From: Nocardioides carbamazepini
GTDB taxonomy: Bacteria; Actinomycetota; Actinomycetes; Propionibacteriales; Nocardioidaceae
Length of the DNA: 64,000 nt
Assembly: GCF_024614185.1 (NCBI RefSeq)
Contig: NZ_JAHTLF010000025.1
Location: forward strand, 62,001-126,000
Direction: 5' to 3'
Shown here: in pieces, positions 31,437-52,029 of the stretch
Position numbering within the stretch: the stretch's first letter is position 1
How the letters are laid out: each line of letters begins with the position of its first letter
The notes under the pieces: generated by a model
The model's database searches: none
The model's input: the letters and a program-made list of their open reading frames with translations, nothing else
Told to the model about the DNA's origin: nothing
Position numbers and translations under genes: made by a program

Positions 31437-31523
31437 ACCGGTGACCGACCGGTTCGCATTAGTTGCCCAAGAGGTCGGATCCGGTTGGGCAACGCTCGCC
31501 GGTGCCGTCCCTTACCAGGCACC
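31437..31523 (+). promoter_or_regulatory. Operator / structured leader of the BMP-type ABC operon
   Basis: In 87 bp there are: ACCGGT at 31437-31442 and 31448-31453 (11 bp apart, one helical turn); a perfect inverted repeat GTTGCCCAA (31462-31470) / TTGGGCAAC (31485-31493) with a 14-bp spacer; and GGTGCC (31501-31506) / GGCACC (31518-31523). The arrangement could be regulator sites or two consecutive hairpins in the leader RNA. I recognise no known riboswitch consensus. Confidence 0.5.
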
Positions 31524-31614
31524 ACAAGGATCTCCCGAAGTGACGCCCGACACATCCGCCCTCGTGGCGGCCCCAGGTAGGTCGGGCGTGGGACTCCTTG
31601 AAGGGTGTGGCGAC

Positions 31615-35277: not shown

Positions 35278-35278
35278 C

Positions 35279-36315: not shown

Positions 36316-37038
36316 TCAGCCCAGCTCGAGGCGCCCCTCCTTCAACGCGATGCCGGTCGCCCGCAGCTGACGTGCGCCGTGCACGAGTGAGGCGATGGTC
36401 CGGGCGGCCGTCTCGTGGTCGAGCCCGTGCGGAGGGTGGATGTTGGAGACGCAGTTGCGGGCCGAGTCCGGTGTCCCCGGGTGCGGCGCCCAGGTGAGGT
36501 AGGCGCCGAGGCTGTCGGCCGTGGTCAGCCCCGGTCGCTCGCCGACCAGCACCAGCGCCATCCGGGCCCGCCAGGCTGCGGCGACGTGGTCGCCCAGCGC
36601 CACCCGGGCCTGGGTGGCGATCACCGGAGGGGCCCACCGGGTGCCGGGCAGCAGCGGCCGGAGAGCCCGCAGCACGCCGTGAGCGTGCCGCTGCACGGCC
36701 GTCGCGCTCAGGCCGTCGGCGAGCACCACCACCAGGTCCGCACCGGGCTCGGCCGACGGGAGCGGGTCGCGGAGCCGGCGTCCCAGGTCCGGCCGGGTCA
36801 GGTACGTCGCCCGGTCGGGTGCCGCGGACGCGACGACGACGGGCGCCGCGAGCCCCGGGATCGAGGCGAGGTCGGCGACGAGCGCGGAGACGTCGAGCGG
36901 CTCGTGCACGGCGTCGCGCGCGGCGGCGTGAGCGGTCACGAACTCGAGCCGCTCTCGGGTGCCGGGCGCCTCACCGAACCGCTGTTGCCCGATCCGGGCG
37001 GGGGTGTGGGCGCGCAGGGCCGCCCAGAAGTCGCTCAC
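36316..37038 (-). CDS. eutC: Ethanolamine ammonia-lyase small subunit
   Basis: 240 residues from GTG 37038, overlapping the eutB stop by 4 bp (GTGA). EutC motifs: RIGQQRFGEAPGTRERLEF, LSATAVQRHA, VALGDHVA, LVLVGERPGL and the conserved tail RNCVSNIHPPHGL. With EutB it forms the B12-dependent lyase that converts ethanolamine to acetaldehyde and ammonia. No microcompartment genes, eutA reactivase or ethanolamine permease gene lie in the window. Confidence 0.95.
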   Translation of the reverse strand: MSDFWAALRAHTPARIGQQRFGEAPGTRERLEFVTAHAAARDAVHEPLDVSALVADLASIPGLAAPVVVASAAPDRATYLTRPDLGRRLRDPLPSAEPGADLVVVLADGLSATAVQRHAHGVLRALRPLLPGTRWAPPVIATQARVALGDHVAAAWRARMALVLVGERPGLTTADSLGAYLTWAPHPGTPDSARNCVSNIHPPHGLDHETAARTIASLVHGARQLRATGIALKEGRLELG

Positions 37039-38435
37039 ACCAGCTCTCGCAGCACACTGAGAGCGGGGTCGACCGGACGGATGCCACCGTCGTCGGCAAG
37101 CAGGCCGACCCGGTCGAGCCAGGCCTCGAACTCCGGGGCCGGCCGCTTGCCGGAGATCCGGCGGGCGTAGAGCGCGTCGTGGAAGCTCGTCGACTGGTAG
37201 CCGAGCATCACGTCGTCGGACCCGGGGACGGCGATGATGAACGAGCACCCGGCCGCGGTCAGCAGGGTCAGCAGGGTGTCGGTGTCGTCGGAGTCGGCCT
37301 CGGCGTGGTTCGTGTAGCAGACGTCAACCCCCATCGGGACGCCGAGCAGCTTGCCGCAGAAGTGGTCCTCCAGCCCCGCGCGGATGATCTGCTTGCCGTC
37401 GTAGAGGTACTCCGGGCCGATGAAGCCGACCACCGTGTTGACCAGGAACGGGTCGAAGGCCCGCGCGACGGCGTACGCCCTGGCCTCGAGGGTCTGCTGG
37501 TCGACGGGGAGGCCGCCCGTGCCATGATGCGCGCCCGCGGAGAGGGCGGAGCCCTGGCCGGTCTCGAAGTACATCACCTGCTCGCCGACCTCACCACGGC
37601 CGAGGGACAGGGCGGCGTCGCGGCCCTCGGCCAGGACGGCGAGGTCGACCCCGAAGCCGGCATTGGCGGCCTGGGTGCCCGCGATCGACTGGAAGACCAG
37701 GTCGACCGGCTCCCCGGCGGCGATCAGGTCGATGGTGGTCGTGACGTGCGTCAGCACGCAGGACTGGGTCGGGATCTCGTAGCGCCGGCGCACCTCGTCG
37801 AGCAGCCGGAGCAGGCGCGCCACGGTCTCGGGGTTGTCGGAGGCGGGGTTGATGCCGATCACCGCGTCGCCGCAGCCGAGCAGCAGCCCGTCGAGCACGG
37901 CGGCCGCCACGCCGGCCGGGTCGTCGGTCGGGTGGTTGGGCTGCAACCGGGTCGCCAGTCGCCCCGCGAGGCCGATCGTGGACCGGAAGCCGGTCACCAC
38001 CTCCGTCGCCGCGCCCACGGCGATCAGCTCCTGGTTGCGCATCAGCTTGCTGACCGCCGCGCCCATCTCCGGGGTCAGGCCGGGCGCGGCGGCGGCCAGC
38101 GCGGCGGCGGCACCCGGTCCGGCGGCGGTCGCGAGCAGCCACTCCCGCAGGCCGCCGACGGTGAGATGTCGCAGCGGCGCGAAGGCCAGGGCGTCGTGGC
38201 CGTCGAGGATCAGCCGGGTGACCTCGTCGTCCTCATAGGGCACGACCGGCTCCTCGAGGAAGGTCGTGAGGGGAACGTCGGCCAGCACCCACTGCGCGGC
38301 GGCCCGCTCGGCGCCCGACTCGGCAGCACTGCCGGCGAGGACGTCGCCGGACCGCAGGGGCGAGGCCCTGCCGAGCACCTCCACCAGCGAGGAGAACGCG
38401 TAGGTCCGGCCCCGGGCCCGGTGCGTGTACCTCAT
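37035..38435 (-). CDS. eutB: Ethanolamine ammonia-lyase large subunit
   Basis: 466 residues, normal EutB length. TIM barrel carrying the active site: LMRNQELIAVG, GDAVIGINPASDN (substrate/metal region), the FQSIAGTQAANAGFGVD segment, YFETGQGSALSAGAHHG and PFLVNTVVGFIGPEYLYDG. ATG 38435 faces away from an SDR gene. Together with eutC it forms a two-gene minus-strand operon. Confidence 0.96.
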   Translation of the reverse strand: MRYTHRARGRTYAFSSLVEVLGRASPLRSGDVLAGSAAESGAERAAAQWVLADVPLTTFLEEPVVPYEDDEVTRLILDGHDALAFAPLRHLTVGGLREWLLATAAGPGAAAALAAAAPGLTPEMGAAVSKLMRNQELIAVGAATEVVTGFRSTIGLAGRLATRLQPNHPTDDPAGVAAAVLDGLLLGCGDAVIGINPASDNPETVARLLRLLDEVRRRYEIPTQSCVLTHVTTTIDLIAAGEPVDLVFQSIAGTQAANAGFGVDLAVLAEGRDAALSLGRGEVGEQVMYFETGQGSALSAGAHHGTGGLPVDQQTLEARAYAVARAFDPFLVNTVVGFIGPEYLYDGKQIIRAGLEDHFCGKLLGVPMGVDVCYTNHAEADSDDTDTLLTLLTAAGCSFIIAVPGSDDVMLGYQSTSFHDALYARRISGKRPAPEFEAWLDRVGLLADDGGIRPVDPALSVLRELV

Positions 38436-38708
38436 GCGGGCTCCCTTCGTCGTGCGCGGCGGTCGTGCGCTGACTGGCCAGCGTAGGCCCGCGCGCTGTG
38501 CGGCGGCGTCGGTCGATCGACGTATCCCGCGGACGGCCTCGCGCCTCGTCCGTTACGGCTGACCACCTCGTTCGTGAAGATCCGGTCTCGCTCACGCTCA
38601 CCGGCGCGCAGATACGTCAAACGACGGACGCGCCGGCCCGCGCCGCCTTCCTACGGTCCTCGTCACCACCGGGTGTGACCCGGACCGCACGACGAGGAAG
38701 CAGGACGC
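38436..38708. promoter_or_regulatory. Divergent intergenic region (eutBC / SDR-amidase cluster)
   Basis: 273 bp between outward-facing operons. GACGTATC (38519-38526) and GATACGTC (38611-38618) form an 8-bp inverted pair that might be shared operator halves, but that length can occur by chance. ACGAGGAAGCAGGACGC just before 38709 serves as ribosome site of the SDR gene. I see no B12 riboswitch features before eutB. Confidence 0.35.
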
Positions 38709-39428
38709 ATGGACAACCTGACGGGACGCGTGGCGCTCGTGACCGGCGCCGCCCAGGGCATCGGGTACGCCGTCGCGACGCGGCTGGCCGAGGCCGGAGC
38801 CCGGGTCGTGGCGACCGATGTGCGCGACCAGTCGGACCTCGGGGAGCACATCGCGACCCGCTCGCACGACGTCACCTCGGCCGCGCGCTGGGCCGAGGTC
38901 GTGGGGGAGGCCGTCGCGGAGCACGGCCGGCTCGACATCCTCGTCAACAACGCCGGCGTCTCGGGCTACGACCAGCTCCACGAGCTGCCGCTCGCCGAGT
39001 GGGAGCGGATCGTCGCGATCAACCAGACCGGCGTGCTGCTGGGCATGCAGACCGCGCTCGGCCCCATGCGGAAGCAGCGCTCCGGCGCGATCGTGAACAT
39101 CTCCTCGATCTGCGGCGCCACCTCGGTGCGGGGCGTCGCGGCGTACCACTCGTCGAAGCACGCCGTGCTGACGATGACCAAGAACGCCGCGGTCACCTAT
39201 GCCCGTGAGGGGATCCGCGCGAACGCCGTGCTGCCGGGCTGGATCCGCACCCCGCTGACCCTCGGGCAGACCGACGACCTCAACGAGGCCTTCCTCGACG
39301 CGACGCCGATGGGCGCCGGTGGTGAGCCGCAGGACGTCGCCGAGGCCGTGTGCTTCCTCGTGTCCGACCGCGCGCGGTTCATCACCGGGGTCGACCTGCC
39401 GGTCGACGGCGGCTACCTGGCCCGCTGA
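38709..39428 (+). CDS. Short-chain dehydrogenase/reductase (SDR) 1
   Basis: 239 residues, classical SDR. TGAAQGIGYA (~12-21) binds NAD(P); VNNAGVSG, the catalytic Ser in ISSICG, and Tyr-Lys in YHSSKH are present; NAVLPGWIRTPLT completes the pattern. An Asp after beta-2 (VVATDVRD) suggests NAD preference. First gene of a five-step-like catabolic cluster with a paralogue next to it. Confidence 0.93.
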   Translation: MDNLTGRVALVTGAAQGIGYAVATRLAEAGARVVATDVRDQSDLGEHIATRSHDVTSAARWAEVVGEAVAEHGRLDILVNNAGVSGYDQLHELPLAEWERIVAINQTGVLLGMQTALGPMRKQRSGAIVNISSICGATSVRGVAAYHSSKHAVLTMTKNAAVTYAREGIRANAVLPGWIRTPLTLGQTDDLNEAFLDATPMGAGGEPQDVAEAVCFLVSDRARFITGVDLPVDGGYLAR

Positions 39429-39467: not shown

Positions 39468-40193
39468 ATGGACCGGCTCAAGGACAAGGTGGCCGTGGTG
39501 ACCGGCGGTGCCGTCGGCATCGGCCTGGCGACCGCGCGGCTGTTCGCCGAGGAGGGCGCGACCGTCGTCGTCGCGGACCTGGACAAGCCCGAGCAGGAGG
39601 TCGACGCTCCCGGCCTGGAGTACGCCGAGCTCGACGTCACCGACGAGGACGCATGGTCCCGCGTCGTCGCCGAGGTGGTCGCTCGCCACGGCCGGCTCGA
39701 TGTGCTCGTCAACAATGCCGGCGTCATCGACTACGCCGCGATCGACGCCGTCACGCCCGAGGACTGGGCGCGCGTGATCGGTGTCGACCAGACCGGCGTC
39801 TTCCTCGGTATGCGCGCCGCACTCGGCCCGATGCTCGCCCAGGGCTCGGGCTCGATCATCAACCTCTCCTCGGCGTGGGGGGTGGTCGGCTCGGAGGGCG
39901 TCGCCGCCTACCAGGCGGCGAAGGGCGGCGTGCGCGGCCTGACCCGCAACGGCGCGGTGACCTATGCCTGCCGCGGCGTCCGCGTGAACACGGTGATCCC
40001 CGGGTGGGTCACCACACCGCTCACCGACGCGCAGCCCGCGGAGAAGAACGCGGAGGTGATCGCGCTGACGCCGCTCGGCTACGGCGCCGAGCCGCGCGAC
40101 ATCGCGTGGGGCTGCGTCTACCTGGCCAGCGACGAGTCCCGCTACGTGACCGGCAGCGAGCTGGTCATCGACGGCGGCCTGCTCGCCCAGTGA
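39468..40193 (+). CDS. Short-chain dehydrogenase/reductase (SDR) 2
   Basis: 241 residues, classical SDR with TGGAVGIGLA (~12-21), VVVADLDKPE (Asp after beta-2, NAD preference), NNAGVIDY, SSAWG and the Tyr-Lys pair in YQAAKG. It is clearly related to the preceding SDR (same VDQTGVFLGM / INQTGVLLGM segment), pointing to tandem duplication with divergence. GGAAGGAAG precedes the ATG. Confidence 0.93.
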   Translation: MDRLKDKVAVVTGGAVGIGLATARLFAEEGATVVVADLDKPEQEVDAPGLEYAELDVTDEDAWSRVVAEVVARHGRLDVLVNNAGVIDYAAIDAVTPEDWARVIGVDQTGVFLGMRAALGPMLAQGSGSIINLSSAWGVVGSEGVAAYQAAKGGVRGLTRNGAVTYACRGVRVNTVIPGWVTTPLTDAQPAEKNAEVIALTPLGYGAEPRDIAWGCVYLASDESRYVTGSELVIDGGLLAQ

Positions 40194-40207: not shown

Positions 40208-41083
40208 ATGAGCCGCACCCTGGCCGTCGCCGCCGCGCAGTTCGAGCTGCGCGAGGTCGACTCCTTCGATGCCTGGGCCGCTCAGGTCCGCACCCTGCTC
40301 GACCGCACCCCCGACGCACGCGTGGTCGTGCTGCCCGAGCTGGTCACCGAGTCGCTGTTCACCACCGATCCCGGCTGGCGCGAGCACCCGATCGCCCAGC
40401 TGACGCGGATCGCGGAGCACACCGACGCCTATGTCGCGCTCTTCACCGAGGAGGCCGCGCGCCGCGACCAGTGGATCCTCGCGGGCACCCATCTGGTGGC
40501 GACGCCCGGCGGCGGCCACGAGAACGTCGCCTTCCTGTTCGGTCCCGGCGGCGAGGTGCACCGTCATGCGAAGACCCACATCTTCCCGGCCGAGGCCGAC
40601 TGGGGCACCGGCGAGGGCGACGAGCTGGCCGTGCACGAGATCGACGGCGTCACCGTCGGCATCGCGATCTGCTACGAGGCCGAGATCCCGGAGGTCTGCA
40701 CGACGCTGACCGCGATGGGCGCCGAGGTGCTCCTCGTGCCGTCGTACACCTTCACGGAGGCGGGCTTCTGGCGGGTGCGGCACTGCGCCGCGGCCCGGGC
40801 GATCGAGAACCAGGTGTACGTCGTGCACTGCCCCACCGTCTCGCACCTGGCGGCGCCGCTGGCGCCCGGTTGGGCGCGGGCCTCGGTGCTGTCGCCGTGC
40901 GACCTGGTCTTCCCCGCCGACGGCGTCCTGGTCGAGGCCCGCACCAACGAGCAGGACGCGATCACCCAGGTGCTCGACCTCGACCTGCTGGCGGAGAACC
41001 GCAGGACAGGAGCGGCCACCACCCACCGGGACCGGGGGCGCCGTCGCGACCTCTACGAGAAGTACGCCCACATCACCCTCTGA
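40208..41083 (+). CDS. Carbon-nitrogen hydrolase (nitrilase superfamily amidase)
   Basis: 291 residues from ATG 40208, with GAGAGGA in front. The catalytic triad is intact: Glu44 (VVLPELV), Lys122 (HRHAKTHIFP) and Cys155 (GIAICYEAEI). Members hydrolyse amides, carbamoyl groups or nitriles. In this cluster, a role as half-amidase opening the product of the neighbouring imidase-like enzyme is attractive but inferred. Confidence 0.92.
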   Translation: MSRTLAVAAAQFELREVDSFDAWAAQVRTLLDRTPDARVVVLPELVTESLFTTDPGWREHPIAQLTRIAEHTDAYVALFTEEAARRDQWILAGTHLVATPGGGHENVAFLFGPGGEVHRHAKTHIFPAEADWGTGEGDELAVHEIDGVTVGIAICYEAEIPEVCTTLTAMGAEVLLVPSYTFTEAGFWRVRHCAAARAIENQVYVVHCPTVSHLAAPLAPGWARASVLSPCDLVFPADGVLVEARTNEQDAITQVLDLDLLAENRRTGAATTHRDRGRRRDLYEKYAHITL

Positions 41084-41118: not shown

Positions 41119-41961
41119 ATGCCTCTCAACCTCCCCGAGGGCAAGAAGATCGCCGTCAACATCGGCGCGGACTTCGACGCCCACGCCGTGTGGATGGGCA
41201 CCTTCGGCAAGACCAGCCCCAGCTACCTCTCGCGCGGCGAGTACTGCGCGACCGTCGGCGTACCGCGGCTGCTCGACCTGTTCGACCGCTACGACATCCA
41301 GGGCACCTGGTGCACGCCGGTGCACACGATGGAGACCTTCCCCGAGGCGTTCGCGAGGATCGTCGAGGCGGGCCAGGAGATCGCGGCCCACGGCTGCTAC
41401 CACGAGTCGGTGCCGAGCCTCGACCAGGACACCGAGATCCGGCTGATGGAGCAGACCATCGAGGGTCACCTCAAGCACGTCGGCAAGGCGCCGCGCGGCT
41501 ACCGCTCGCCGGCCTGGGACTTCACCGAGCACACCCTGGAGCTGCTGGAGAAGACCGGCTTCGAGTGGGACTCCTCGCTCATGGGCCACGACTTCCAGCC
41601 GTACCACCCGCGACCGGTCGACGTCCGCTGGGAGGAGGGGTCGGTCTTCGGTCCGCCGAGTCCGCTGCTGGAGTTCCCCGTCTCCTGGTACCTCGACGAC
41701 TTCCCGGTCGGCGAGTACATCCCCGGGGTGAACCCGGGCCTCGGCTCCAGCGAGGTGATGTTCCAGCGCTTCCAGGACCACTTCGACTTCGCCTACGAGC
41801 GGGAGAGCGCGCCGGTCCTGGCGATCACGCTGCACCCGCAGACCGCGGCCCGCGCCCACCACCTGCTGGGCCTCGAACGGCTGCTCGACCACATGGCGTC
41901 CCACGAGGGCGTGTGGTTCGCGTCGCTGAGCGACATCTACGACACCTGGACCGAGGACTGA
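41119..41961 (+). CDS. NodB-fold deacetylase-like hydrolase (cyclic imidase / PgdA-like)
   Basis: 280 residues, no signal peptide, so cytosolic. The polysaccharide-deacetylase fold has metal/catalytic residues in GADFDAH (Asp18, Asp20, His22) and AHGCYH (His91, His95), with RSPAWDFTEHTLELL (motif 3) and a late His in LAITLHPQ. The DFDAH variant and cytosolic location fit the HpPgdA/cyclic-imidase branch that opens cyclic imides, rather than sugar deacetylases. Next to an amidase gene, this suggests ring opening of a cyclic amide followed by hydrolysis. Confidence 0.85.
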   Translation: MPLNLPEGKKIAVNIGADFDAHAVWMGTFGKTSPSYLSRGEYCATVGVPRLLDLFDRYDIQGTWCTPVHTMETFPEAFARIVEAGQEIAAHGCYHESVPSLDQDTEIRLMEQTIEGHLKHVGKAPRGYRSPAWDFTEHTLELLEKTGFEWDSSLMGHDFQPYHPRPVDVRWEEGSVFGPPSPLLEFPVSWYLDDFPVGEYIPGVNPGLGSSEVMFQRFQDHFDFAYERESAPVLAITLHPQTAARAHHLLGLERLLDHMASHEGVWFASLSDIYDTWTED

Positions 41962-42040: not shown

Positions 42041-43072
42041 ATGAAGCACCGTCCCCTCCTCTCCGTCGCCGTCGCCGGCGTCGCCGCCTGCCTCGCGATG
42101 GCCGGCTGCTCGTCCGGTGTCTCGGACACCGCCTCGGCGTCGACCGAGATCATCGACCCGCCGGTCTCCGACCCGGCCGACCTCAAGATCGCCTACTTCT
42201 CGGCCGGAACGAGCAACTCCTACCTGCAGGCCGCGATCGACGAGGCGAAGAAGACCGCCGGTGAGCTCGGCGCCGACCTCGACGTCTTCGACGGCGCCTT
42301 CGACGCGCAGGTCCAGTTCGACCAGATGCAACAGGCCCTGACGAGCGGCAAGTACAACGCGTTCGTCGTGGAGCCCAATGACGGCAATCTGGTGTGCGAC
42401 ATCCTCACCCAGCAGGCGCCGGAGAAGGACGTTCTGGTCTCCGTCTTCAACCTGCCGATCTGCGGCCGCGGCACGAACCTCGGCGAGGAGACGCACCAGC
42501 CCGGCACGATCACCTATGTCGGCGGGCAGACCCTCGACGTCTACGAGGACTGGGTGCAGGACGTCATCGACTCCCACCCCGACGGGGCGAAGATCGCGCT
42601 GGTCTCGGGACCGGACCTCAACGCCAACACGCTCTGCTTCTTCGAGGCGGCCAAGGCGTTCGCGAAGGTCGACGGCTTCGAGGTCGTCGCCCGGCAGACC
42701 ACCGACTACACGACGCCGAAGGCGTTCGACGCGGCGCAGACGATCGTTCAGGCCAACCCCGACGTCGACATCATCATGTCGAACTTCTCGGGCATGACCC
42801 GCGGCGTCGTCGAGGCGGTCGGCGGCAAGGACGTCGAGATCTACGACTTCGGCGGCGACGAGTGGGCACTGCAGAACGTCGCGTCCGGCGCGCTGACCAG
42901 CTCGGTGATGATGCTGCCGCGCGTCGAGACCCGCGAGGCCATCGAGGCCGTCGCCCGCTACGTCGAGGGCGAGGACGTTCCCGTGTTCATCAACCTCGCC
43001 GAGTCCGACAGCCTGCCCGGCACGCCGTTCGCCACCAAGGAGAACGTCGCGCAGTTCACGGCCGAGTACTGA
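42041..43072 (+). CDS. ABC sugar-type substrate-binding lipoprotein (RbsB-like)
   Basis: 343 residues. Signal peptide with lipobox LAMAGCSS (Cys ~23). Peripla_BP_4 fold: LKIAYFSAGTSNSYLQAAIDEAKKTA at the mature N-terminus, AFVVEPNDG, KIALVSGP and DIIMSNFSGM. Ligand may be a sugar-like or polar ring compound; the enzyme neighbours favour an amide-containing one. GAAGGAAG precedes the ATG. Confidence 0.9.
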   Translation: MKHRPLLSVAVAGVAACLAMAGCSSGVSDTASASTEIIDPPVSDPADLKIAYFSAGTSNSYLQAAIDEAKKTAGELGADLDVFDGAFDAQVQFDQMQQALTSGKYNAFVVEPNDGNLVCDILTQQAPEKDVLVSVFNLPICGRGTNLGEETHQPGTITYVGGQTLDVYEDWVQDVIDSHPDGAKIALVSGPDLNANTLCFFEAAKAFAKVDGFEVVARQTTDYTTPKAFDAAQTIVQANPDVDIIMSNFSGMTRGVVEAVGGKDVEIYDFGGDEWALQNVASGALTSSVMMLPRVETREAIEAVARYVEGEDVPVFINLAESDSLPGTPFATKENVAQFTAEY

Positions 43073-43092
43073 GCAGGGTCCCGGAGACTGTC

Positions 43093-44607
43093 ATGAGCGA
43101 CACCAACACGCCCGCCATCGCCTGCCGTGGGGCCCGCAAGGTCTTCGGGGGAGCGGTCGCCGTCGCCGGTGCGGACCTCGTGGTCCGGGCCGGGGAGGTG
43201 CACGCGCTGGTCGGCGAGAACGGCGCGGGCAAGTCCACCCTGCTCGGCATGGTCAGCGGTCGGCTGGGCGCCGACGGCGGGACCGTCGAGGTGTTCGGGC
43301 ACCGGATGCACGGCGGCAACCCCCGCGAGAGCAGGGAGCGCGGCCTGGTGGCGGTCTACCAGGAGCTGACGATGGTGCCGGGCCTGACCGCCGAGGCCAA
43401 CGTCTTCCTCGGCCAGGTCCGCACCCGGCACGGCCTCCTGGACGGCCGTGCCATGCGTCGGCGCTACCTCGAGCTCTGCGCGGAGCTGGAGATCGACGTA
43501 CCGCCGACGGCGCTGGCGCGCGACCTGTCGGTCTCGCAGCAACAGATGCTCGAGATCATGCGCGGCATCGAGAGCAACGGCCGGGTGCTGGTGCTCGACG
43601 AGCCGACCGCCGCGCTGGCCGAGCACGAGCGGGACACGCTCTACCGGATCCTGCGCCGGCTGACGGCACGCGGCACGACGATCGTCTTCGTCAGCCACAA
43701 CCTCGACGAGGTGCTGGATCTCAGCGACACCATCACCGTGCTCCGTGACGGACACGTGGTGCGCAGCGCTCCCCGGGGGGAGTGGACCAAGCCGACGCTG
43801 ATCGAGCACATGGTCGGCCGCACGGTCGACAGGCTGGCCGAGCGCGGCACGCACCCGTTCGGCGCGGAGGTGCTGGCTGCGCGCGGCGTACGACTGCCCG
43901 GAGTGCTGCACGACATCGACGTCACCGTGCGGGCCGGCGAGATCGTCGGTCTGTGGGGCCTGGTCGGCTCCGGCCGCACGACCTTCCTCCGCTCGCTCGC
44001 CGGTGCCGAGCCGGCCTCGTCGGGCGAGCTGCGCCTGCTGGGGGAGCCGGTCCCGTGGCCGCGCTCGGTCCGTCAGGCCGTCGGCCGGGGGGTGGTGATG
44101 GTGCCCGAGTCGCGCAAGCAGGCGCTGGTGCTCGGCATGGACGGCACCAGCAACTACTGGCTCGGCCGCGGTGGCCGCCGGATCTTCCTCGACCGCCGGA
44201 CGGAGCGGGTGGAGGCGGGCGAGACGGCCGACTTCTTCGCCTTCAAGCGCTCGCGGATCGGGGAGCCGGTGCGCAACCTGTCGGGCGGAAACCAGCAGAA
44301 GGTGCTGCTGGCCAAGTGGGCCGGGCACGAGCCCGACGTGTTCCTCATCGACGAGCCGACCCGCGGCATCGACATCGGCGCGAAGGCCGAGGTGCTCACC
44401 TCGCTCGTGCGCCTGGCCGCCGAGGGCGCCGCCGTCGTCGTCACCTCCTCGGAGCTGGAGGAGGTGCTCGCGATCGCCAACCGGCTGCTCGTCTTCGCCC
44501 ACGGCTCCGTGGTCCGCGAGATCCCCAGCGACGACCCCGAATTCAACGTCGACGCCGTCGTGCGTCACGGCTTCAGCACAGGAGAGACCCATGAACCCGT
44601 CCACTGA
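43093..44607 (+). CDS. ABC sugar-type double ATPase (RbsA-like)
   Basis: 504 residues from ATG 43093. First half: Walker A GENGAGKST (~40-48), LSVSQQQMLEI, Walker B VLVLDEPTAAL. Second half: GLVGSGRTT, LSGGNQQKVLL, FLIDEPTRGIDIG. The last 17 bp overlap the permease gene. It powers import of the ligand of the RbsB-like protein. Confidence 0.93.
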   Translation: MSDTNTPAIACRGARKVFGGAVAVAGADLVVRAGEVHALVGENGAGKSTLLGMVSGRLGADGGTVEVFGHRMHGGNPRESRERGLVAVYQELTMVPGLTAEANVFLGQVRTRHGLLDGRAMRRRYLELCAELEIDVPPTALARDLSVSQQQMLEIMRGIESNGRVLVLDEPTAALAEHERDTLYRILRRLTARGTTIVFVSHNLDEVLDLSDTITVLRDGHVVRSAPRGEWTKPTLIEHMVGRTVDRLAERGTHPFGAEVLAARGVRLPGVLHDIDVTVRAGEIVGLWGLVGSGRTTFLRSLAGAEPASSGELRLLGEPVPWPRSVRQAVGRGVVMVPESRKQALVLGMDGTSNYWLGRGGRRIFLDRRTERVEAGETADFFAFKRSRIGEPVRNLSGGNQQKVLLAKWAGHEPDVFLIDEPTRGIDIGAKAEVLTSLVRLAAEGAAVVVTSSELEEVLAIANRLLVFAHGSVVREIPSDDPEFNVDAVVRHGFSTGETHEPVH

Positions 44608-45589
44608 ACTCTCGCCCGCCGGCGCGGTGGCCGCCGTGCCGGCGCCCGAGCGCGCCTCGCTCGCGCCGCTGGCCTCGCGCTTCGCGATGATCGCTGTGCT
44701 CATCGGCCTGGTGGTGCTCGCCAGCATCCTCTACCCGGGCTTCCTCGCCCCCGCCAACCTGCGCGACCTCCTGCTGCAGAACACGGCGGTCGGCATCGTG
44801 GCGCTGGGCATGACGTTCGTGATCATCTCGGGAGGCTTCGACCTCTCGGTCGGTGCGACGTACGCGCTGGGGGCCACGGTCTCGGCCGGCGTGGCGATCT
44901 CGACCGGATCGCCGGTCGCGGGGATCGTCGCGGCGGTCCTGGCGGGGCTCGTGTGCGGTGTCGCCAACGGGATCCTCGTCGCCCGGGTGGGCATCAACCC
45001 GTTCGTCGCGACCCTCGGCAGCGCGTCGGTGATCTCGGGAGTCGCCTACCTCTACTCCAGCTCGGCGCCGTTCATCGTCTCCGACGCCGACTTCAAGATC
45101 CTCGCCCGCTCGAGTGTCGCGGGTGTGCCCACGCCGATCCTGGTCCTCGTGGTCACGTTCGTGATCGGTGGCATCGCGCTGGCGATGACCCGCTACGGCC
45201 GCAACATCTACGCCGTCGGCGGCAACCACGAGGCGGGCTGGCTGTCCGGCCTGCGGGTCAAGGACCTCACCGCCAGCGTCTACGTCCTGACCGGTGTGCT
45301 CGCCGCGTTCGCGGGCACCATCGACGCCTCGCGGCTCGGCGTCGGCCAGGCCGACGTGGGTGCCAACATCGCCCTCGACGCGATCGCCATCGTCATCGTC
45401 GGCGGCACGTCGCTGCGCGGCGGCGAGGGCGCGGTCTGGCGCAGCGCGGTCGGCCTGCTCATCTTCGCGACGCTGACGAACCTCTTCTACAGCCTCAACC
45501 TGTCGCAGAACTGGCAGCTGATCGCGAAGGGGACCATCGTGCTGCTCGCCGTGGCACTCGACTCCTGGTCGCGCAACCGGCGCTCCTGA
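44591..45589 (+). CDS. ABC sugar-type permease (RbsC-like)
   Basis: 332 residues from ATG 44591 with GGAGAG in front. ~10 membrane helices; family motifs GFDLSVGATYALGA (~80-93), VARVGINPFVATLGSA and GRNIYAVGGNHEAGWLSGL are intact. It completes the RbsBAC-type importer and ends shortly before the LuxR-binding-protein fusion gene. Confidence 0.93.
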   Translation: MNPSTELSPAGAVAAVPAPERASLAPLASRFAMIAVLIGLVVLASILYPGFLAPANLRDLLLQNTAVGIVALGMTFVIISGGFDLSVGATYALGATVSAGVAISTGSPVAGIVAAVLAGLVCGVANGILVARVGINPFVATLGSASVISGVAYLYSSSAPFIVSDADFKILARSSVAGVPTPILVLVVTFVIGGIALAMTRYGRNIYAVGGNHEAGWLSGLRVKDLTASVYVLTGVLAAFAGTIDASRLGVGQADVGANIALDAIAIVIVGGTSLRGGEGAVWRSAVGLLIFATLTNLFYSLNLSQNWQLIAKGTIVLLAVALDSWSRNRRS

Positions 45590-45681
45590 GCGACGATCGA
45601 CGAGCGCGGCCGACCCCGGGCGGCGCCGTCTATCCTCGGGGGAGGGGCTCGGGTTCTGCTCGGAGGGGGAAAGGAGGGGCC

Positions 45682-47451
45682 GTGCCCAAGGACGAGACCA
45701 CTGTCGCGACCGCGCACGAGATCGTCCTCGCCCCCGGGGGAGAGCTCTCCACGATGCGTGGGGTCGGCGCCGAGGCGGCCGGCCGCCTCGAGGGCCTGCT
45801 CGATATCGCGCGGCGGGCCGGTCGGCTCGCGGGCCACCACGAGCTGTCGTTCTACTGGCGCGACGGCGACAACAGGATCGTCTTCGCCACCGTCCGCTCA
45901 CCGGGCCACGAGTCCCGCACCTCACTCTCCTGGGTCGACGAGGCAGAGCTCCCGCACGGCGTCACCCAGCGCGAGCTCGACGTCCTCACGTTGCTGGTGG
46001 GCGGCCTCAGCAACGCCCAGATCGCGACCCGGCTCTGGACGAGCGTCCGCACCGTCTCCACGCACGTCGAGCGGGTGCTGGCCAAGCTCGAGGTCGCGAC
46101 GCGAGCCGGTGCCGCGGCGGTCGCGGTCGAGGAGAGCCTGCTGGTGCTGCCCGTCCCGGGCGGCCCGGAGGGCTTCGAGCGGCTTCTCATCGGCAGGCTC
46201 AGCACGCCCGACCAGGAGCCGGCGCCACTGCCGCTCGGGCGTCGCCCGCCGCCGCCACGCAGCGGTCGCCGTTCGGTACGACGACCGATACTGCTCGGCA
46301 GCGCCTTCCCGACCACGGGCCAGATCGCCGAGGACGGCCTCGAGATGGTGCGCGCCAGCCAGCTCGCCATCGACGAGATCAACGCCCGCGGCGGCATCAG
46401 CGGCCGCCCGGTCAAGCTCGTCAACGTCGACCTGGACATCCGGAGCTCGGTCTCCGTCGCGCGCGCCTTCGACGAGCTGGCCGGTCTCGACGTCGACGCG
46501 ATGGTCTCGGGCTACCTCGACGACCAGCGGGTGGCTCACGAGATCGCCGCCGAGCACCAGGCGCCTTATCTCCACGCCGCGACCCTGGACGCGATGGTGC
46601 GGGTGGTCGAGGACAACCCGAGCCGCTACGGCAACGTCTTCCAGATCTGCCCGAGCGACACCAACTACGGCCCCGGATTCGTCAATGCGATGAGCTTCCT
46701 GCGCGAGTCCGGGCAGCTCTCGCCCCACTCCCGCTCGCTCGCCGTCGTCCGCGGGCGGTGGAAGCTCGGCGACCTGGGCCTGGAGGACGCCGTCGCCCGG
46801 GCCGAGCGCGACGGCTGGCGCATCGACTACCTCGCCGACGACGTCGTCGGGGACGAGGCGTGGCGCGAGCACGGCCGCCGCGTCGCGCAGTTCGCCCCTG
46901 CCGCGGTCCTGATCGGCACCTACTTCGAGGACGAGGCGGCACAGTTCGTGCGCGCCTTCCAGGCGGACCCGGCACCGACGGTCCTCTATGCGCTCTACGC
47001 GCCCTCGATCCCGCGGTTCCGAATCGACCTCGGCCCCGCGGCCGAGGGACTTCTCTGGGCCACGACGACCGGCACCTACTCCGACGACGTCGCCCGGGCC
47101 TTCTCCCAGCGCTACCGTGACGCCTGGGCGGTGAGCCCCGGCCGCTCCCATGCGGGCATCGCGTACGACCGGGTGCGGATCCTCGCCTCCGCCTGGTCCC
47201 GGGCGGACTCACCGCGCGACTTCACGTCGGTGATCGAGTCGCTGCGCCAGGGGGTCCACCGCGGGGTCAACGGTGCCTACAGCTTCGCCAACGCCGGCCA
47301 GTCCGCCCTCGCCTACCCGTTGGCGACCCCGGACCCCTCGATCGGCATGGCCCACCTCGTGTTCCAGATCCAGGACAACCGGCAGCGGATCGTGCACCCC
47401 GCGCCGTACACGGAGGCACGCTTCCGGCGCCCGGCCTGGTGGCCCGCCTGA
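45682..47451 (+). CDS. Regulator fusing a LuxR-type HTH to an ABC-type ligand-binding domain
   Basis: 589 residues from GTG 45682 with AAGGAGGGG in front. No signal peptide, so cytosolic. Residues ~94-145 are a LuxR/GerE HTH: GVTQRELDVLTLLVGGLSN and IATRLWTSVRTVSTHV. A Pro/Arg-rich linker leads to a type-I periplasmic-binding fold (~203-585) of the AmiC/UrtA/branched-chain-amino-acid kind: LLGSAFPTTGQIAEDGLEM, AIDEINARGGISGRPV, YGNVFQICPSDTNYG and LWATTTGTYSDD. The binding domain probably senses the imported compound and switches DNA binding of the HTH. It directly follows the importer genes and is the likely regulator of this cluster. Confidence 0.88.
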   Translation: MPKDETTVATAHEIVLAPGGELSTMRGVGAEAAGRLEGLLDIARRAGRLAGHHELSFYWRDGDNRIVFATVRSPGHESRTSLSWVDEAELPHGVTQRELDVLTLLVGGLSNAQIATRLWTSVRTVSTHVERVLAKLEVATRAGAAAVAVEESLLVLPVPGGPEGFERLLIGRLSTPDQEPAPLPLGRRPPPPRSGRRSVRRPILLGSAFPTTGQIAEDGLEMVRASQLAIDEINARGGISGRPVKLVNVDLDIRSSVSVARAFDELAGLDVDAMVSGYLDDQRVAHEIAAEHQAPYLHAATLDAMVRVVEDNPSRYGNVFQICPSDTNYGPGFVNAMSFLRESGQLSPHSRSLAVVRGRWKLGDLGLEDAVARAERDGWRIDYLADDVVGDEAWREHGRRVAQFAPAAVLIGTYFEDEAAQFVRAFQADPAPTVLYALYAPSIPRFRIDLGPAAEGLLWATTTGTYSDDVARAFSQRYRDAWAVSPGRSHAGIAYDRVRILASAWSRADSPRDFTSVIESLRQGVHRGVNGAYSFANAGQSALAYPLATPDPSIGMAHLVFQIQDNRQRIVHPAPYTEARFRRPAWWPA

Positions 47452-47547: not shown

Positions 47548-50500
47548 TCAGCGCCGTGTGATCCGCCGCGCCTTGCTCGTCGCGGTCGCCGGTTCGTATC
47601 CGGCGGCGGTCGCCGTCACGGTCACCCGGACCCGCTTGCCCGCCTGCTTCGGCTTGAGGGCGAGCCGGGGCACGTCGGTCGTGACGCTCTTGCGGCCGAT
47701 CCGCCACACGTAGCTGAGCTGGGCGCCCTGTGGCAGCACGTTCACCCTCACCCGCAGCCGCTTGCCCGCGACGGCCTTGCCCACCAGCGTGACCTGGCCG
47801 AGCTCGGCCTTCCCGGGCGCGACCGCGGCGTCGGCCGTCCCCTGGGCGGTGACGGCGATCTTGCCGGCCTCGGCCGCCAGCACCCGTACGCCGAGCCTGC
47901 TGCCCAGGTCGCTCGCGACCGGCGTGTAGGAGCTGCCCGTCGCACCGGAGATCGGGGCGCCGTCCCGCAGCCACTGATAGGCCAGCTCGGTGGACGGATC
48001 CCAGGCGCGAGCCGTCGCTCGGAGCGGCTGCCCGACCCGGGCGGAGCCCTCCACCAGGACGGACCCGAGCCGCACGGTCTCGGGGACCGGGTCGGGACCC
48101 GGCCCGCCGCTCGACTCCGCGACCGCGGTGGTCGCCGCGCTGGTGGCGCTCGCCGGCTCATGCCCGGCCAGGTAGCCGCTGACCCGCACCGCGAGCCGGT
48201 GGCCGAGGTCGGCCCGGACGGCCGTGTAGGCGCTGGAGAGCGCACCGGGGATCGGTGCGCCGTCGCGCAGCCACTGGAAGGTGAGGGTGGTGCCCTCCGG
48301 CCACGACCCGGTGTCGGCCAGCACGGTGGCGCCGACCTCGGCGATGCCGCGCACGCTCGCCCGGGGCGCGCTGAGGCGGGCCAGCGCGACCGGCTCGGCC
48401 GCGGCGGCCCTGACCTCGATCGGGGCCCGGTCAGGCGCGCTCACCGTGGCCACCACGGTCAGCACGGTGCCCAGGTCGTCGATGCCGGCGGCGTGACCGG
48501 GGCCGGTGGCTCCCTCGATCACGGCGCCGTCGCGCAGCCACCGGTAGGTGACCTCGGCGCCATCGGCCCACTCGCCGAGGTCCGCGGTGAGGGTCTCGCC
48601 GAACATCGGCGTACCCCGCAGCGTCAGGTCACCGCCCGTGACGGTGACCTGGACCGGCGTCTCGGCGTCGTTGACGGTGAGGGTCGCGGAGGCCGAGCCC
48701 GACCGCAGCGCGGTCAGCTGGTGCGTGGACGGGTCGATGGCGACCACGGCAGTCTCGGGTGCGTCGGCGGCCGGGCCGACGTACACGCCGGTGTCGCCCT
48801 TCCAGGCGTAGCTGGTCGGCCAGGCGACGTCGAAGGTCCGGGCGCCGTCGTCCTGGGAGACGCGCGGCGCCAGGTCGTGGATCGTCCCGACCGGCAGGAC
48901 GCCGCCCGGCTCCGCGACGACCAGCTCGTCGACCCTGGTCTCGACCTCGGCCTTGAGCCAGTCGGTGCCGCCGTCGGAGAGCTGCCAGCGGCCCTCGGCG
49001 GGGTCGACGCCGAGCATGGTCCAACCGGTGAAGCCGCCGTCCTCGGGCACCGAGGCCGGGCTCTTGCCGGAGTTGCCGTTGACGACGTAGGGCACACCGT
49101 CGACCTGCTCGGCGTGGAAGACGCCGACGTGGCCGGCGACGTAGGCCACCGACTTGCCCGAGTCCGCCCGGAACTCCTGCAGCCAGTCGTCGATGAAGGC
49201 CGCCTCGTTGCGGTCGGCCAACTGGCTGCCGTCGGTCGGGAGCGGGTCGTTGGTCGGCATGTGGGTGAACAGCAGCACGCCGGTGATGGACGGGTCCTCG
49301 GCCGCGGCGTCGAGCTGCTCGCGCAGCATCTTGACCTGGGCGAAGTCGCTGGCGAGCTTCCCGGTGGCCGAGTTCAGCGTGATGAATCGGGTGTGGCCGA
49401 GGTCGAACACCTGGGTCGTGTCACCGAACTCGGTCTTGAAGTTGGCGATGTCACCGCCCATGATCTCGTGGTTGCCGGGCACGTAGTACCACGGGAAGTC
49501 GATGCCGGCGAGCTCCTCGTCGAGGATCGAGCGGGCGAGGTCGAAGTCGGCCTCGCTGGCCTCGTCGACGAAGTCGCCGTTGATCACCAGCACGTCGGGC
49601 TCGGCGGCCACGATCTCGCGCAGCGCCTGCCGGGCGCCCGTCACCGCCCCGCTCTCGGGATCCCGCGCCACGAACTGCGCGTCCGACATCACCGCGACCC
49701 GCAGGTCGCTGTCGTCGGTCTCGCCGGCCTCCGCCACGACCGGGTCCTGCGCCCGCTCCGCGACCGGCGCCTCGACGCCCTCCGGCGGCAGGTAGGCGTA
49801 GATCTGGGAGAACTCCAACGATCCCGTGTACTGCTTGGCCGCGACGGTCTCCAGGGCACGGATCCGCTCCAGCTTGAGCGGGAAGGAGAACGTCTCGGGC
49901 ACGAGGAAGTCGACCCGCTCCCAGCCGGTCCAGGTGGCGTGCAGCGACTGCTGGCCGTCGGGACCGTCGATCCAGTTGCGCACCCCGTTGGCCTGCATGA
50001 CCTGCAGCCGCAGCAACGATCCCTTGCCGTCGCCCTTGATCCACACCGACAGCTTCTGGGGGCGCCCCGGGATGTCGATGCCGGTACCCGGGGCGACGGC
50101 GTACCGGCCGCGGGTGGCGGTGGAGCCGGTGAAGTCGTAGTTGAGCCGGATGCTGGCCGACCCCTCGAAGCCCTCGCCGGGCTCGATGCCGCCCACCGGG
50201 GCCCGGTCGTGCGCGGTGGTCCAGCCGGAGACGTCGGAGAAGTCGTCGATGAGCTTCAGCTCCAGCGGGACGGCGACGGCGACCTGCGCCTCGTGGCCGC
50301 CCACCCGGAACCGCAGCGTGGCCGACCCCTCGGTCCCGGTGGCGGTGATGGTGAAGCGGCCGTCGGCCGTGGGCGCGACCGAGAAGAGGTCCGGCGCCGG
50401 GTTGACGACCTCGACGTCGGCCGGCTCGATCGGGGCGCGGAAGCCCTGCACGTCGATGCCGGTCAGCGCGAGGGTCTGGGCCGAGCCCTGCTTCTCGAGG

Positions 50501-52029
50501 TTCAGCACCGTCTGGTCGAGCTCGACGCGGTGGAGCTCGCCGAGCACCTGCAGGTCGATGCCGCCGACCGCGGCGCTGTTGCTGGCCCGGACCGTCGCGG
50601 TGCCGGCGGCGCGCCCGGTGACGATGCCATCGGCGACGGTTGCGACCTGGCCGTCGCTGCTGCGCCATCGGTCGGGCCGGCCGGGGGCCGAGGAGAGGGT
50701 CTCGTCCACGCCGAGCGCGCTCAGCGCGCGGTGCAGACCGGGGAAGACCCGGTCGGCGCCCTCGTCCTGGGAGGCGGTCTCGACATCGAAGGCCACCAGC
50801 GAGCCCGAGCCCGGCCGGGCCAGGACCAGCCCCATGCCGTCGCCGTCGTAGCGCTCATAGCCGTCCGACGGTGTGTTCATCACGGTGGTGTCCTCGTCGC
50901 CGGCGAGCCGGACGTTCATCTGGCTCGACCCGCCGCCGTCGGCGTTGATGGCGTCGTACGCGCCGAGGTCGAGCATCAGCTCGGCCTGCTGGTCGAAGTT
51001 CATGCCGCTGGCGACGGCGGTCCGGCCGTCGACGACCACGAAGTACGCCGTGCGGCGGTCTTGGCTGAACCCGACCATGGTGCGGGGGTTCTTGTCGGTG
51101 AAGTACCCGTCGCCACCCCAGGACCCCTTCTGGCCGCCGGTGACCAGCCGGTGCCAGGCTCCTCCGGCCTCCTCGATCTCGACGCCGGGATCCTGGATCC
51201 GGTAGCTGACCTCGACCTGGTCTCCGGTTTGGAGCGCCGCCAGCCGGATGCCGGCGGCGCTGCCGTCCTCGGCGACGAGGATCTGCGTCCCGGCCGGGAT
51301 CTCGCCCTCGCCGACGGTCTGGGCGACCTGCTGCACCTTGTTGTCGGGGCCGACCCAGACCTCCACCCCGGCGGTGGCGTCGGGCAGCGCGCGGGCGCGG
51401 GAGTAGGTGCCCCACTGCGCGTTGTAGAGCGCGACACCGCCCGCGGGCATCGCGTAGGCGTTGATGCCGGTGATCGAGACCGAGCTGTCGTCCGCGAAGG
51501 TCGCCGCGCCCTCCAACACCAGGTCGACCAGTGCGCCGAGACCGTCGGAGGTCATGCCGACGGAGGCGGCGGCGTCGGGGTTGCCCGACTTGATGATCTC
51601 GCCGTCCCTGACGCCCCAACCGGCCGCGGCCCAGGAGTTGTTGATGTCGAAGCGGTCCAGGTTGACGCCGGCGATGGCGTCGGCGGCATCGACCATCTCG
51701 GTCACCGTGCCGCCAGGGCCCGCGACGGTCTCCGGCGTGAGGTACGTCATCTTGACGGTCTCGTCGCCGAGGTCGGCCTTGAGGATGTTGACCTGCTGCC
51801 AGCCGTTGGGGTCGAGCCTCTCGTACTGCACATGCACCAGGCCGGGCGCGACCTCGGTGCGCGCCAGGCCGTTGATGACCGCCGTGCCGTCCGCGTCGAG
51901 GTTCATGCCCTCGACGACGATCCGGTCCGAGGCTCCGGCGGGCGACGGGACGAGCATGACCCCGGCGCCCACGGCGAGTCCCACACAGGCGGCGACGAGG
52001 CTGCCGCCACGTCGGGAGAAGAATGACAT
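47548..52029 (-). CDS. Large secreted phosphodiester glycosidase / metallophosphoesterase / Ig-like protein
   Basis: 1493 residues. Signal peptide 1-~33 (LVAACVGLAVGAGVMLVPSPAGA). A phosphodiester-glycosidase (NAGPA) domain runs to ~430 and includes AYDAINADGGGSSQMNV. Bacterial Ig-like segments (~430-640) and a beta-sandwich carbohydrate-binding-like module (~640-790) follow. A metallophosphoesterase domain (~810-1080) has MSDAQF, VINGDFVDEA, YVPGNHEIMGG, LLFTHMP and GHVGVFH as metal ligands. The C-terminus has Ig-like repeats with recurring YxWLRDGAxIxGA three times and ends KARRITRR. No sorting signal. It probably releases sugars or phosphate from phosphodiester-linked surface glycans or teichoic acids; this is inferred. 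Confidence 0.88.
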   Translation of the reverse strand: MSFFSRRGGSLVAACVGLAVGAGVMLVPSPAGASDRIVVEGMNLDADGTAVINGLARTEVAPGLVHVQYERLDPNGWQQVNILKADLGDETVKMTYLTPETVAGPGGTVTEMVDAADAIAGVNLDRFDINNSWAAAGWGVRDGEIIKSGNPDAAASVGMTSDGLGALVDLVLEGAATFADDSSVSITGINAYAMPAGGVALYNAQWGTYSRARALPDATAGVEVWVGPDNKVQQVAQTVGEGEIPAGTQILVAEDGSAAGIRLAALQTGDQVEVSYRIQDPGVEIEEAGGAWHRLVTGGQKGSWGGDGYFTDKNPRTMVGFSQDRRTAYFVVVDGRTAVASGMNFDQQAELMLDLGAYDAINADGGGSSQMNVRLAGDEDTTVMNTPSDGYERYDGDGMGLVLARPGSGSLVAFDVETASQDEGADRVFPGLHRALSALGVDETLSSAPGRPDRWRSSDGQVATVADGIVTGRAAGTATVRASNSAAVGGIDLQVLGELHRVELDQTVLNLEKQGSAQTLALTGIDVQGFRAPIEPADVEVVNPAPDLFSVAPTADGRFTITATGTEGSATLRFRVGGHEAQVAVAVPLELKLIDDFSDVSGWTTAHDRAPVGGIEPGEGFEGSASIRLNYDFTGSTATRGRYAVAPGTGIDIPGRPQKLSVWIKGDGKGSLLRLQVMQANGVRNWIDGPDGQQSLHATWTGWERVDFLVPETFSFPLKLERIRALETVAAKQYTGSLEFSQIYAYLPPEGVEAPVAERAQDPVVAEAGETDDSDLRVAVMSDAQFVARDPESGAVTGARQALREIVAAEPDVLVINGDFVDEASEADFDLARSILDEELAGIDFPWYYVPGNHEIMGGDIANFKTEFGDTTQVFDLGHTRFITLNSATGKLASDFAQVKMLREQLDAAAEDPSITGVLLFTHMPTNDPLPTDGSQLADRNEAAFIDDWLQEFRADSGKSVAYVAGHVGVFHAEQVDGVPYVVNGNSGKSPASVPEDGGFTGWTMLGVDPAEGRWQLSDGGTDWLKAEVETRVDELVVAEPGGVLPVGTIHDLAPRVSQDDGARTFDVAWPTSYAWKGDTGVYVGPAADAPETAVVAIDPSTHQLTALRSGSASATLTVNDAETPVQVTVTGGDLTLRGTPMFGETLTADLGEWADGAEVTYRWLRDGAVIEGATGPGHAAGIDDLGTVLTVVATVSAPDRAPIEVRAAAAEPVALARLSAPRASVRGIAEVGATVLADTGSWPEGTTLTFQWLRDGAPIPGALSSAYTAVRADLGHRLAVRVSGYLAGHEPASATSAATTAVAESSGGPGPDPVPETVRLGSVLVEGSARVGQPLRATARAWDPSTELAYQWLRDGAPISGATGSSYTPVASDLGSRLGVRVLAAEAGKIAVTAQGTADAAVAPGKAELGQVTLVGKAVAGKRLRVRVNVLPQGAQLSYVWRIGRKSVTTDVPRLALKPKQAGKRVRVTVTATAAGYEPATATSKARRITRR

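Follow-up and report, generated by a model that had tools for sequence, protein, structure and literature searches.

Regulators of the LacI/GalR family bind DNA with their N-terminal part and sense ligands inside the cell with the type I binding-protein fold that comes after it, and AmiC is built on a type I binding-protein fold too. In the AmiC–AmiR system of Pseudomonas aeruginosa, as passages of PMC3795266 describe it, a small-molecule-binding protein controls the aliphatic amide operon. A comparable role is proposed here for a fusion protein encoded at 45682–47451 of a 64,000-nucleotide stretch of Nocardioides carbamazepini (contig NZ_JAHTLF010000025.1, positions 62,001 to 126,000; hereafter the window). 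It joins a LuxR-type helix-turn-helix (HTH) to a type I binding half. We think it likely that this fusion is a cytosolic one-component activator of the divergent SDR1 operon, named for its first gene, and of the ethanolamine ammonia-lyase genes eutBC, and that it senses a cyclic imide or lactam, or a half-amide. An earlier note on this DNA had proposed a one-protein amide sensor-activator. The present comparison supports that proposal through the two domains, the lack of a signal peptide, amide- and imide-hydrolase neighbours in two phyla, and a repeat with the geometry of an activator site.

The fusion protein and its family

45682–47451, plus strand: gene of the fusion regulator, with an N-terminal region (1–90), HTH, linker and Peripla_BP_6 half (Pfam and phmmer)

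The gene is directly seen as a single open reading frame with a GTG start at 45682 and a TGA stop ending at 47451. It encodes 589 amino acids with no internal stop, which confirms the exact frame given in the earlier note; AAAGGAGG lies directly 5' of the GTG. An N-terminal stretch of about 90 residues is followed by a LuxR/GerE HTH at 95–148 (GerE, PF00196, 6.4e-14, 51.8 bits against a Pfam cut-off of 23.5), a Pro/Arg-rich linker at about 180–200, and a binding half of the type I binding-protein kind at about 203–587. Peripla_BP_6 (PF13458) matches residues 203–540 (2.6e-22, 80.4 bits against a cut-off of 31.7, profile positions 2–328 of 343), and a match to Peripla_BP_5 falls slightly under its own Pfam cut-off. 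The union of a LuxR-type HTH and a periplasmic-binding half, which the note had read from the letters, is thus borne out by domain search. The note had allowed that a profile search might find the C-terminal half not to be a periplasmic-binding fold; the search gave Peripla_BP_6 instead.

The closest solved relative of the binding half is PDB 3h5l, filed as a putative branched-chain amino acid ATP-binding cassette (ABC) transporter and matched over residues 200–587 (phmmer, 1.2e-51). With a profile of the fusion family the match to 3h5l reaches 1.6e-83 with nearly the whole binding half aligned, and by this homology the C-terminal half is assigned the type I periplasmic-binding fold. AmiC is reached at an E of only about 0.03 by phmmer against solved structures. 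The resemblance to AmiC/UrtA-type sensors once claimed for the binding half needs refining: the sensor is not narrowly AmiC-like, AmiC itself is distant, 3h5l is the closest solved structure, and AmiC orthology of the sensor half is rejected. The HTH halves of VraR, NarL and DevR match the HTH of the fusion. Among its Pfam matches at E ≤ 1, where HMMER filters discard most matches above 0.1, there is no LacI HTH (PF00356), Peripla_BP_1, 3 or 4, receiver or autoinducer-binding domain, and no ANTAR domain, an unlinked ANTAR partner in the genome not having been searched for. PADLOC gave weak HTH matches only, and an AlphaFold2 model from only four sequences (window, L013, L014 and L015) was poor, with a predicted local distance difference test score (pLDDT) of 40.7.

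The family has 15 full-length members including the window protein, and both Pfam domains are found in all of them (E ≤ 0.001). The ten members compared with the window protein are 33–91% identical to it. The closest is that of Pimelobacter simplex ATCC 6946 (L013, 91%), followed by three other Nocardioidaceae (65–73%) and three genomes of family f18 (L034, L035 and L036; 42–46%). The genome of the window protein holds a second copy of the same layout (L017, G000:C11:611996-615542; 41%). Two fusions are plasmid-borne, one in Agrobacterium tumefaciens and one in Paenarthrobacter (L020, L021), and four were found later, two in f94 (L100, L101), one in f108 (L102) and one in f92 (L103). The possibility that a frameshift or assembly artefact joined two genes, also raised in the earlier note, found no supporting point. 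One frame is kept in the 15 full-length sequences, which come from different genomes and include the paralog in the same genome, and we reject this explanation as having practically no chance of being right.

There is no hydrophobic leader in the protein: its Kyte–Doolittle mean over 19 residues peaks at 1.35, whereas the N-terminus of the neighbouring RbsB protein reaches 2.07. The note's statement that the signal peptide is absent therefore holds. This bears on whether the protein might simply be an ABC-transporter solute-binding protein that happens to have an HTH. The public records for L020 and L021 do name the homologues 'ABC transporter substrate-binding protein', so that the HTH and the regulatory role are hidden. 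Without a signal peptide, and with the HTH kept in 15 of 15, a transport-only role is rejected. Moreover, the neighbouring ABC operon of f18 begins with a binding protein of its own, whose leader resembles that of the twin-arginine translocation (Tat) pathway. A role in transport seems to us very improbable.

The fusion is rare. It was found in 3 of 58 relatives and 3 of 198 family genomes; matches occur in 7 of 396 phylum genomes, with the full fusion seen in 4, and, with the Paenarthrobacter protein as query, in 6 of 394 class genomes, with the full fusion seen in 5. All these frequencies are lower bounds, part of the candidates per genome having been scored. Among 44 plasmid records with a match, a single place spans at least 80% of the query in two, which are the two plasmid fusions; in the other 28 plasmid records among the matches listed, the match begins only at residue 203. 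A tree of 19 binding domains puts 11 regulators on one side of a branch and 8 solute-binding proteins on the other (support 99/97), the four later fusions (L100–L103) being left out. This split fits one fusion event followed by transfer; the inner details of the tree are unsure, with long branches. A decayed module is carried by the Paracoccus pantotrophus plasmid pPAN2 (L024). Its CN_hydrolase gene is intact, its imidase-type gene and fusion regulator are in several pieces, and the annotation splits the binding half into three hypothetical proteins.

An inverted repeat at a fixed distance from the -10 box

An 18-bp inverted repeat like ATMCGTCAnnTGACGKAT precedes the operons linked to the fusion. 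In the window its two best instances and their -10 boxes are as follows.

38612–38629, plus strand: operator candidate ATACGTCAAACGACGGAC, centred 88.5 bp upstream of the SDR1 start; top site of the window with a matrix made without this lineage
38652–38657, plus strand: -10 box TACGGT, 34 bp from the centre of the candidate at 38612–38629
38508–38525, minus strand: second operator candidate, ATACGTCGATCGACCGAC, lying upstream of eutB and ranking second in the window
38480–38485, minus strand: -10 box TACGCT, 34 bp from the centre of the candidate at 38508–38525

The repeat was recognised among inverted repeats listed in 15 gene-start regions. The same perfect palindrome, ATCCGTCA-AA/TT-TGACGGAT, is present in all three f18 divergent regions; similar 18-mers were seen by eye before operons in other lineages, and several regions hold unrelated repeats. 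As a guard against choice by eye, one matrix was trained without the lineage being scanned and a second was made from the three f18 sites alone. Both return the same top two sites in the 64-kb window, 38612 (20.1 and 20.3) and 38508 (11.5 and 12.0), and both sites fall inside the divergent eutB/SDR1 gap. The score of 20.3 at 38612 is above the best of 20 Markov controls (19.0). Sites found with the f18 matrix also exceed 40 controls at the own-genome paralog L017 (21.0 vs 16.5), where the palindrome ATCGGTCAGATGACCGAT precedes its own CN_hydrolase and imidase-type genes, and at L021 (24.2 vs 19.9), where the repeat lies inside the 95 bp that separate CN_hydrolase from the fusion gene. The four later fusions had been kept out of matrix building. 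The best sites of L100 and L101 (11.8 and 11.9) are GTCGGTCATCTGACCGAC, just before CN_hydrolase, and the best site of L102 (22.6) stands before its imidase gene with a -10 at 34 bp.

What makes the case for an operator strong is the conserved spacing to the -10 box. TANNNT occurs 33 or 34 bp from the centre of the repeat at 17 of 19 gene-assigned sites, which include relatives and are not independent of one another. The background rate is 71 in 9490 positions (0.75%; 14 such regions, both strands, true sites included). The spacing is seen at the promoters of SDR1, eutB, the paralog, the f18 binding-protein and imidase genes, and Agrobacterium. In 17 promoters chosen for having the -10 (one of L102 included, L013 eutB left out), the -35 hexamer nearest to TTGACA agrees with it at 2–4 of 6 positions, at spacings of 16–18. 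If transcription starts 7 bp after the -10 box, as we assumed, the repeat is placed near -43. As far as sequence can tell, a site near -42 at a fixed distance from the -10 and with a weak -35 amounts to the geometry of a class II activator. LuxR-type activators work from a lux box at about -42.5, and LuxR-type HTHs often activate from about -42. A repeat near -43 without a -35 box is therefore in the location from which such activators work.

This geometry also bears on whether the same architecture and operator might belong to a repressor released by its ligand, following the logic of LacI. An HTH ahead of a binding half resembles the LacI plan, and a site near the -10 box could also block polymerase. 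Set against this are the constant 33/34-bp spacing and the poor -35 boxes, since promoters that lack a -35 box need help and not blocking, and the habit of LuxR-type HTHs of activating from this position. We consider a repressor unlikely, and prefer activation by the fusion.

A rule combining the repeat at two mismatches or fewer with the -10 was applied to both strands of 11 loci and gave 17 matches. Sixteen are before SDR1, eutB, CN_hydrolase, binding-protein or imidase genes. The remaining one, L035:15931-15948 on the minus strand, is before a hydantoinase A gene, which likely widens the regulon to hydantoin- or oxoproline-like rings. The rule finds nothing directly before the regulator gene itself (45400–45690), nor 5' of CN_hydrolase in the decayed Paracoccus copy.

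A number of observations weigh against a shared operator for the fusion. By score, the eutB site at 38508 (12.0) is below the mean control maximum of 12.9, and the sites at L013 (10.8), L016 (10.9) and L018 (15.7) are within random controls, as is the weak site at L037 (7.0, second in its locus). The top two sites of L013, L016 and L018 nevertheless stand before SDR1 and eutB; in L037 the combined rule finds no site before eutB. At three mismatches the pattern matches one place in the window with 0.38 expected, so that sequence alone is not decisive there. The Agrobacterium repeat, ATACGCATTAACGCGTAT, is diverged and missed by the f18 matrix, and the presumed recognition helix of the Agrobacterium fusion also differs (RTVAKHIE vs RTVSTHVE). 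Both spacing failures come from one site, that of Paenarthrobacter, which was read once in each direction; the combined rule has no match at L020 or L021, L100 and L101 have CACGCT in place of TANNNT, and the site of L103 is weak (12.5) and lacks a -10. There is also a strong site (27.3) at L104, between binding-protein and imidase genes, on a 3.8-kb contig that carries no fusion. Finally, at three other places in the own genome the pattern is matched perfectly with no -10 at 33/34 bp.

The wider search of that genome gave 81 strand matches within one mismatch, against 8 for a reversed control pattern. Of the 126 site-directions at 63 places, four come with the -10. Two of them are the window promoters, one belongs to the paralog's CN_hydrolase, and the fourth lies before an Amidase gene (PF01425, 1.4e-107; L151:4170-5693, G000:C24), which has the repeat with a -10 at 34 bp before it and a GerE-type regulator after it. 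Either regulator could control that gene, since the amidase is followed by a GerE-type regulator of its own. One perfect match, ATCCGTCAGTTGACGGAT at G000:C19:237545-237562 (L079:8546), lies about 4 kb from the L004 regulator and has no -10 at 33/34 bp.

The repeat could then be the operator of separate LuxR regulators, with the fusion binding elsewhere or regulating otherwise. Three LuxR-type paralogs in the own genome (L003, L004 and L010) have other N-terminal parts and a GerE-type HTH much like that of the fusion, and may use similar sites; the L151 amidase with such a regulator next to it, and the L104 repeat on a short contig, could be taken the same way. On the other side, the repeat accompanies the fusion gene to the Paenarthrobacter plasmid, there between CN_hydrolase and the fusion itself, and to distant families. 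Furthermore, none of five imidase-like loci without a fusion has it just before the imidase-like gene among the four best sites of each (five of the six loci fetched, L060 being left out). We hold this quite improbable, less so than transport, and continue with the fusion as the protein that would bind the repeat.

Neighbouring genes and the proposed pathway

The regulator gene follows seven genes in the same direction, and eutBC diverge from them.

36316–37041, minus strand: EutC, ethanolamine ammonia-lyase small subunit (neighbour comparison, Pfam)
37035–38435, minus strand: EutB, ethanolamine ammonia-lyase large subunit (Pfam)
38709–39428, plus strand: SDR1, short-chain dehydrogenase (SDR), first gene of the operon (Pfam, neighbour comparison)
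39468–40193, plus strand: SDR2, short-chain dehydrogenase (Pfam, neighbour comparison)
40208–41083, plus strand: CN_hydrolase, nitrilase-superfamily amidase, predicted half-amidase (Pfam)
41119–41961, plus strand: polysaccharide-deacetylase/HpPgdA/PuuE-family protein, predicted cyclic imidase (Pfam, solved relatives)
42041–43072, plus strand: Peripla_BP_4 solute-binding protein of RbsB type with a hydrophobic N-terminus (Pfam, hydropathy)
43087–44607, plus strand: ABC ATPase of RbsA type (Pfam)
44585–45589, plus strand: ABC permease of RbsC type, BPD_transp_2 (Pfam)

The earlier note had placed the regulator directly after an RbsBAC importer, which is where the Peripla_BP_4, ABC and BPD_transp_2 genes put it. 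It had also seen an amidase and an imidase-like gene upstream; both are there, refined now to the CN_hydrolase and polysaccharide-deacetylase-family genes. The closest solved relative of the latter's product, which is of the HpPgdA/CE4 sequence type, is HpPgdA (3qbu, 3e-55), with PuuE allantoinase at 1.5e-14. Passages of PMC9304392 liken to 3qbu the cyclic imidase HxnM of Aspergillus nidulans and a Pseudomonas putida imidase, and in its pathway HxnM works after a dehydrogenase and before an amidase (passages of PMC9304392 and PMC8478523). The product of 41119–41961 is accordingly predicted to be a cyclic imidase, and the enzymes encoded nearby suggest that the substrates are cyclic imides, or cyclic amides related to them, together with the corresponding half-amides, apparently rather than simple aliphatic amides.

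The synteny is directly visible. The whole order from SDR1 to the regulator (SDR1, SDR2, CN_hydrolase, deacetylase family, RbsB, RbsA, RbsC, regulator) is common to the window and four relatives. EutB adjoins the cluster in all five and EutC in four, L013 being truncated inside EutB. The set of CN_hydrolase, deacetylase-family gene and regulator is shared by the paralog locus, where the fusion gene is convergent with the other two, and by Agrobacterium, Paenarthrobacter and the two f94 genomes. In all three genomes of f18 and in L102, two SDR genes come after the deacetylase-family gene, and beside the regulator lies an ABC operon whose first gene encodes a separate protein related to the sensor half. 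Regulator and ABC operon diverge in f18, and L102 has the regulator on the far side of the operon. The separate relative in L034 is a Peripla_BP_6 protein with a Tat match below the Pfam cut-off, and those of L035, L036 and L102 have twin-arginine leaders by eye. The three f18 fusions are without CN_hydrolase and have an N-terminal nucleophile (Ntn)-type gene beside the imidase gene, identified by Pfam in L034 as AAT (Ntn hydrolase), adjoining the SDRs and imidase gene, and by eye in L035 and L036. Over the 15 loci (tblastn, E ≤ 1e-8), an imidase-type gene is near the fusion in 14 and CN_hydrolase in 10. The sole locus without an imidase-type gene, L103, has Hydantoinase_A and Hydantoinase_B genes divergent from the regulator. 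Deacetylase-family relatives occur in 17 of 198 family genomes, some without the fusion, and the most similar copies (84–100%) are in just those three genomes that have the fusion.

We propose the following mechanism. The sensor half would have been recruited from a family of ABC-importer solute-binding proteins. The compound, most likely a cyclic imide or lactam or its half-amide, would enter through RbsBAC and then be bound by the cytosolic binding-protein half. We infer that ligand binding alters a dimer of the fusion such that the central LuxR-type HTH occupies the 18-bp repeat near -43, where it would replace the missing -35 contact and recruit RNA polymerase to the divergent promoters at 38480–38657. 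This would turn on SDR1, SDR2, the amidase, the imidase, RbsBAC and the regulator, and divergently eutBC. Since the regulator is the last gene of the activated operon, positive feedback is probable. Oxidation of a hydroxylactam by the SDRs may yield the imide, whose ring the imidase would open, and CN_hydrolase would split the half-amide. That EutBC deaminates the released amine is the most speculative step. We count ethanolamine ammonia-lyase as likely in the regulon because the eutB site is present in four of five Nocardioidaceae; L016 and L018 have it though eutBC are on the other side of the cluster. If eutBC do belong to the Nocardioidaceae regulon, the amide would release ethanolamine or a similar amino alcohol.

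A broader reading, to which we give about an even chance, is that of a mobile family of one-protein activators of cyclic imide and lactam catabolism, derived from one joining of a LuxR HTH to an ABC-importer binding protein and spread over Actinomycetota and Alphaproteobacteria with a shared kind of operator at -43. One lineage would have an exported sister of the sensor half that feeds the importer, and a cytosolic copy that switches its gene on. If so, a single binding fold senses the compound both outside the cell and within it.

Two further features of the region lie outside the cluster. Beyond eutBC, 31441–36211 encodes a Bmp/PnrA-type ABC importer, which in Pimelobacter simplex (L013) directly follows the regulator. 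On the minus strand, 47548–52029 encodes a long protein in which a NAGPA domain (phosphodiester glycosidase) is joined to a calcineurin-like phosphoesterase domain.

Comparison with known systems

Among the open-licence papers that were searched, we recognised no description of a LuxR HTH joined to a binding fold of the LIVBP/AmiC side. Passages of a survey of 991 LuxR proteins from 53 actinobacteria give other partner domains and do not list this fusion (PMC3466318); in its main text 'periplasmic' is absent and 'substrate-binding' occurs once, 12 of the 14 matching places being covered. What is new is thus a LuxR-based variant of the LacI-like plan, with a candidate operator and promoters. 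The candidate operators, promoters and regulon are directly testable, and a cyclic-imide sensor would serve as a useful biosensor part. The regulon would also tie ethanolamine ammonia-lyase to an amide pathway.

Each of the nearest systems shares a part of the plan. VraR, NarL and DevR have a similar HTH; the fusion lacks their receiver domain, and its HTH is central instead of C-terminal. Proteins of the 3h5l type, also Peripla_BP_6, align over nearly the whole binding half, to which the fusion adds an HTH while lacking a signal. On the enzyme side, the SDR, imidase and amidase genes resemble the sequence of dehydrogenase, HpPgdA-like cyclic imidase and amidase formed by HxnW, HxnM and HxnN in the nicotinate pathway of A. 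nidulans, as given in passages of PMC9304392 and PMC8478523. That system is eukaryotic, its amidase is of family PF01425 and its regulator is HxnR. The AmiC–AmiR system uses two proteins, of which AmiR is an ANTAR RNA-binding antiterminator, whereas the fusion is one protein with a DNA-binding LuxR HTH. With LacI/GalR regulators the fusion has in common an HTH, a type I binding fold and an intracellular sensor. It differs in having a GerE HTH, in a Peripla_BP_6 half from the LIVBP/AmiC side instead of the sugar-binding Peripla_BP_1/3/4, and in being a predicted activator. The fusion would be a compact analogue of AmiC/AmiR, and an analogue of LacI based on LuxR.

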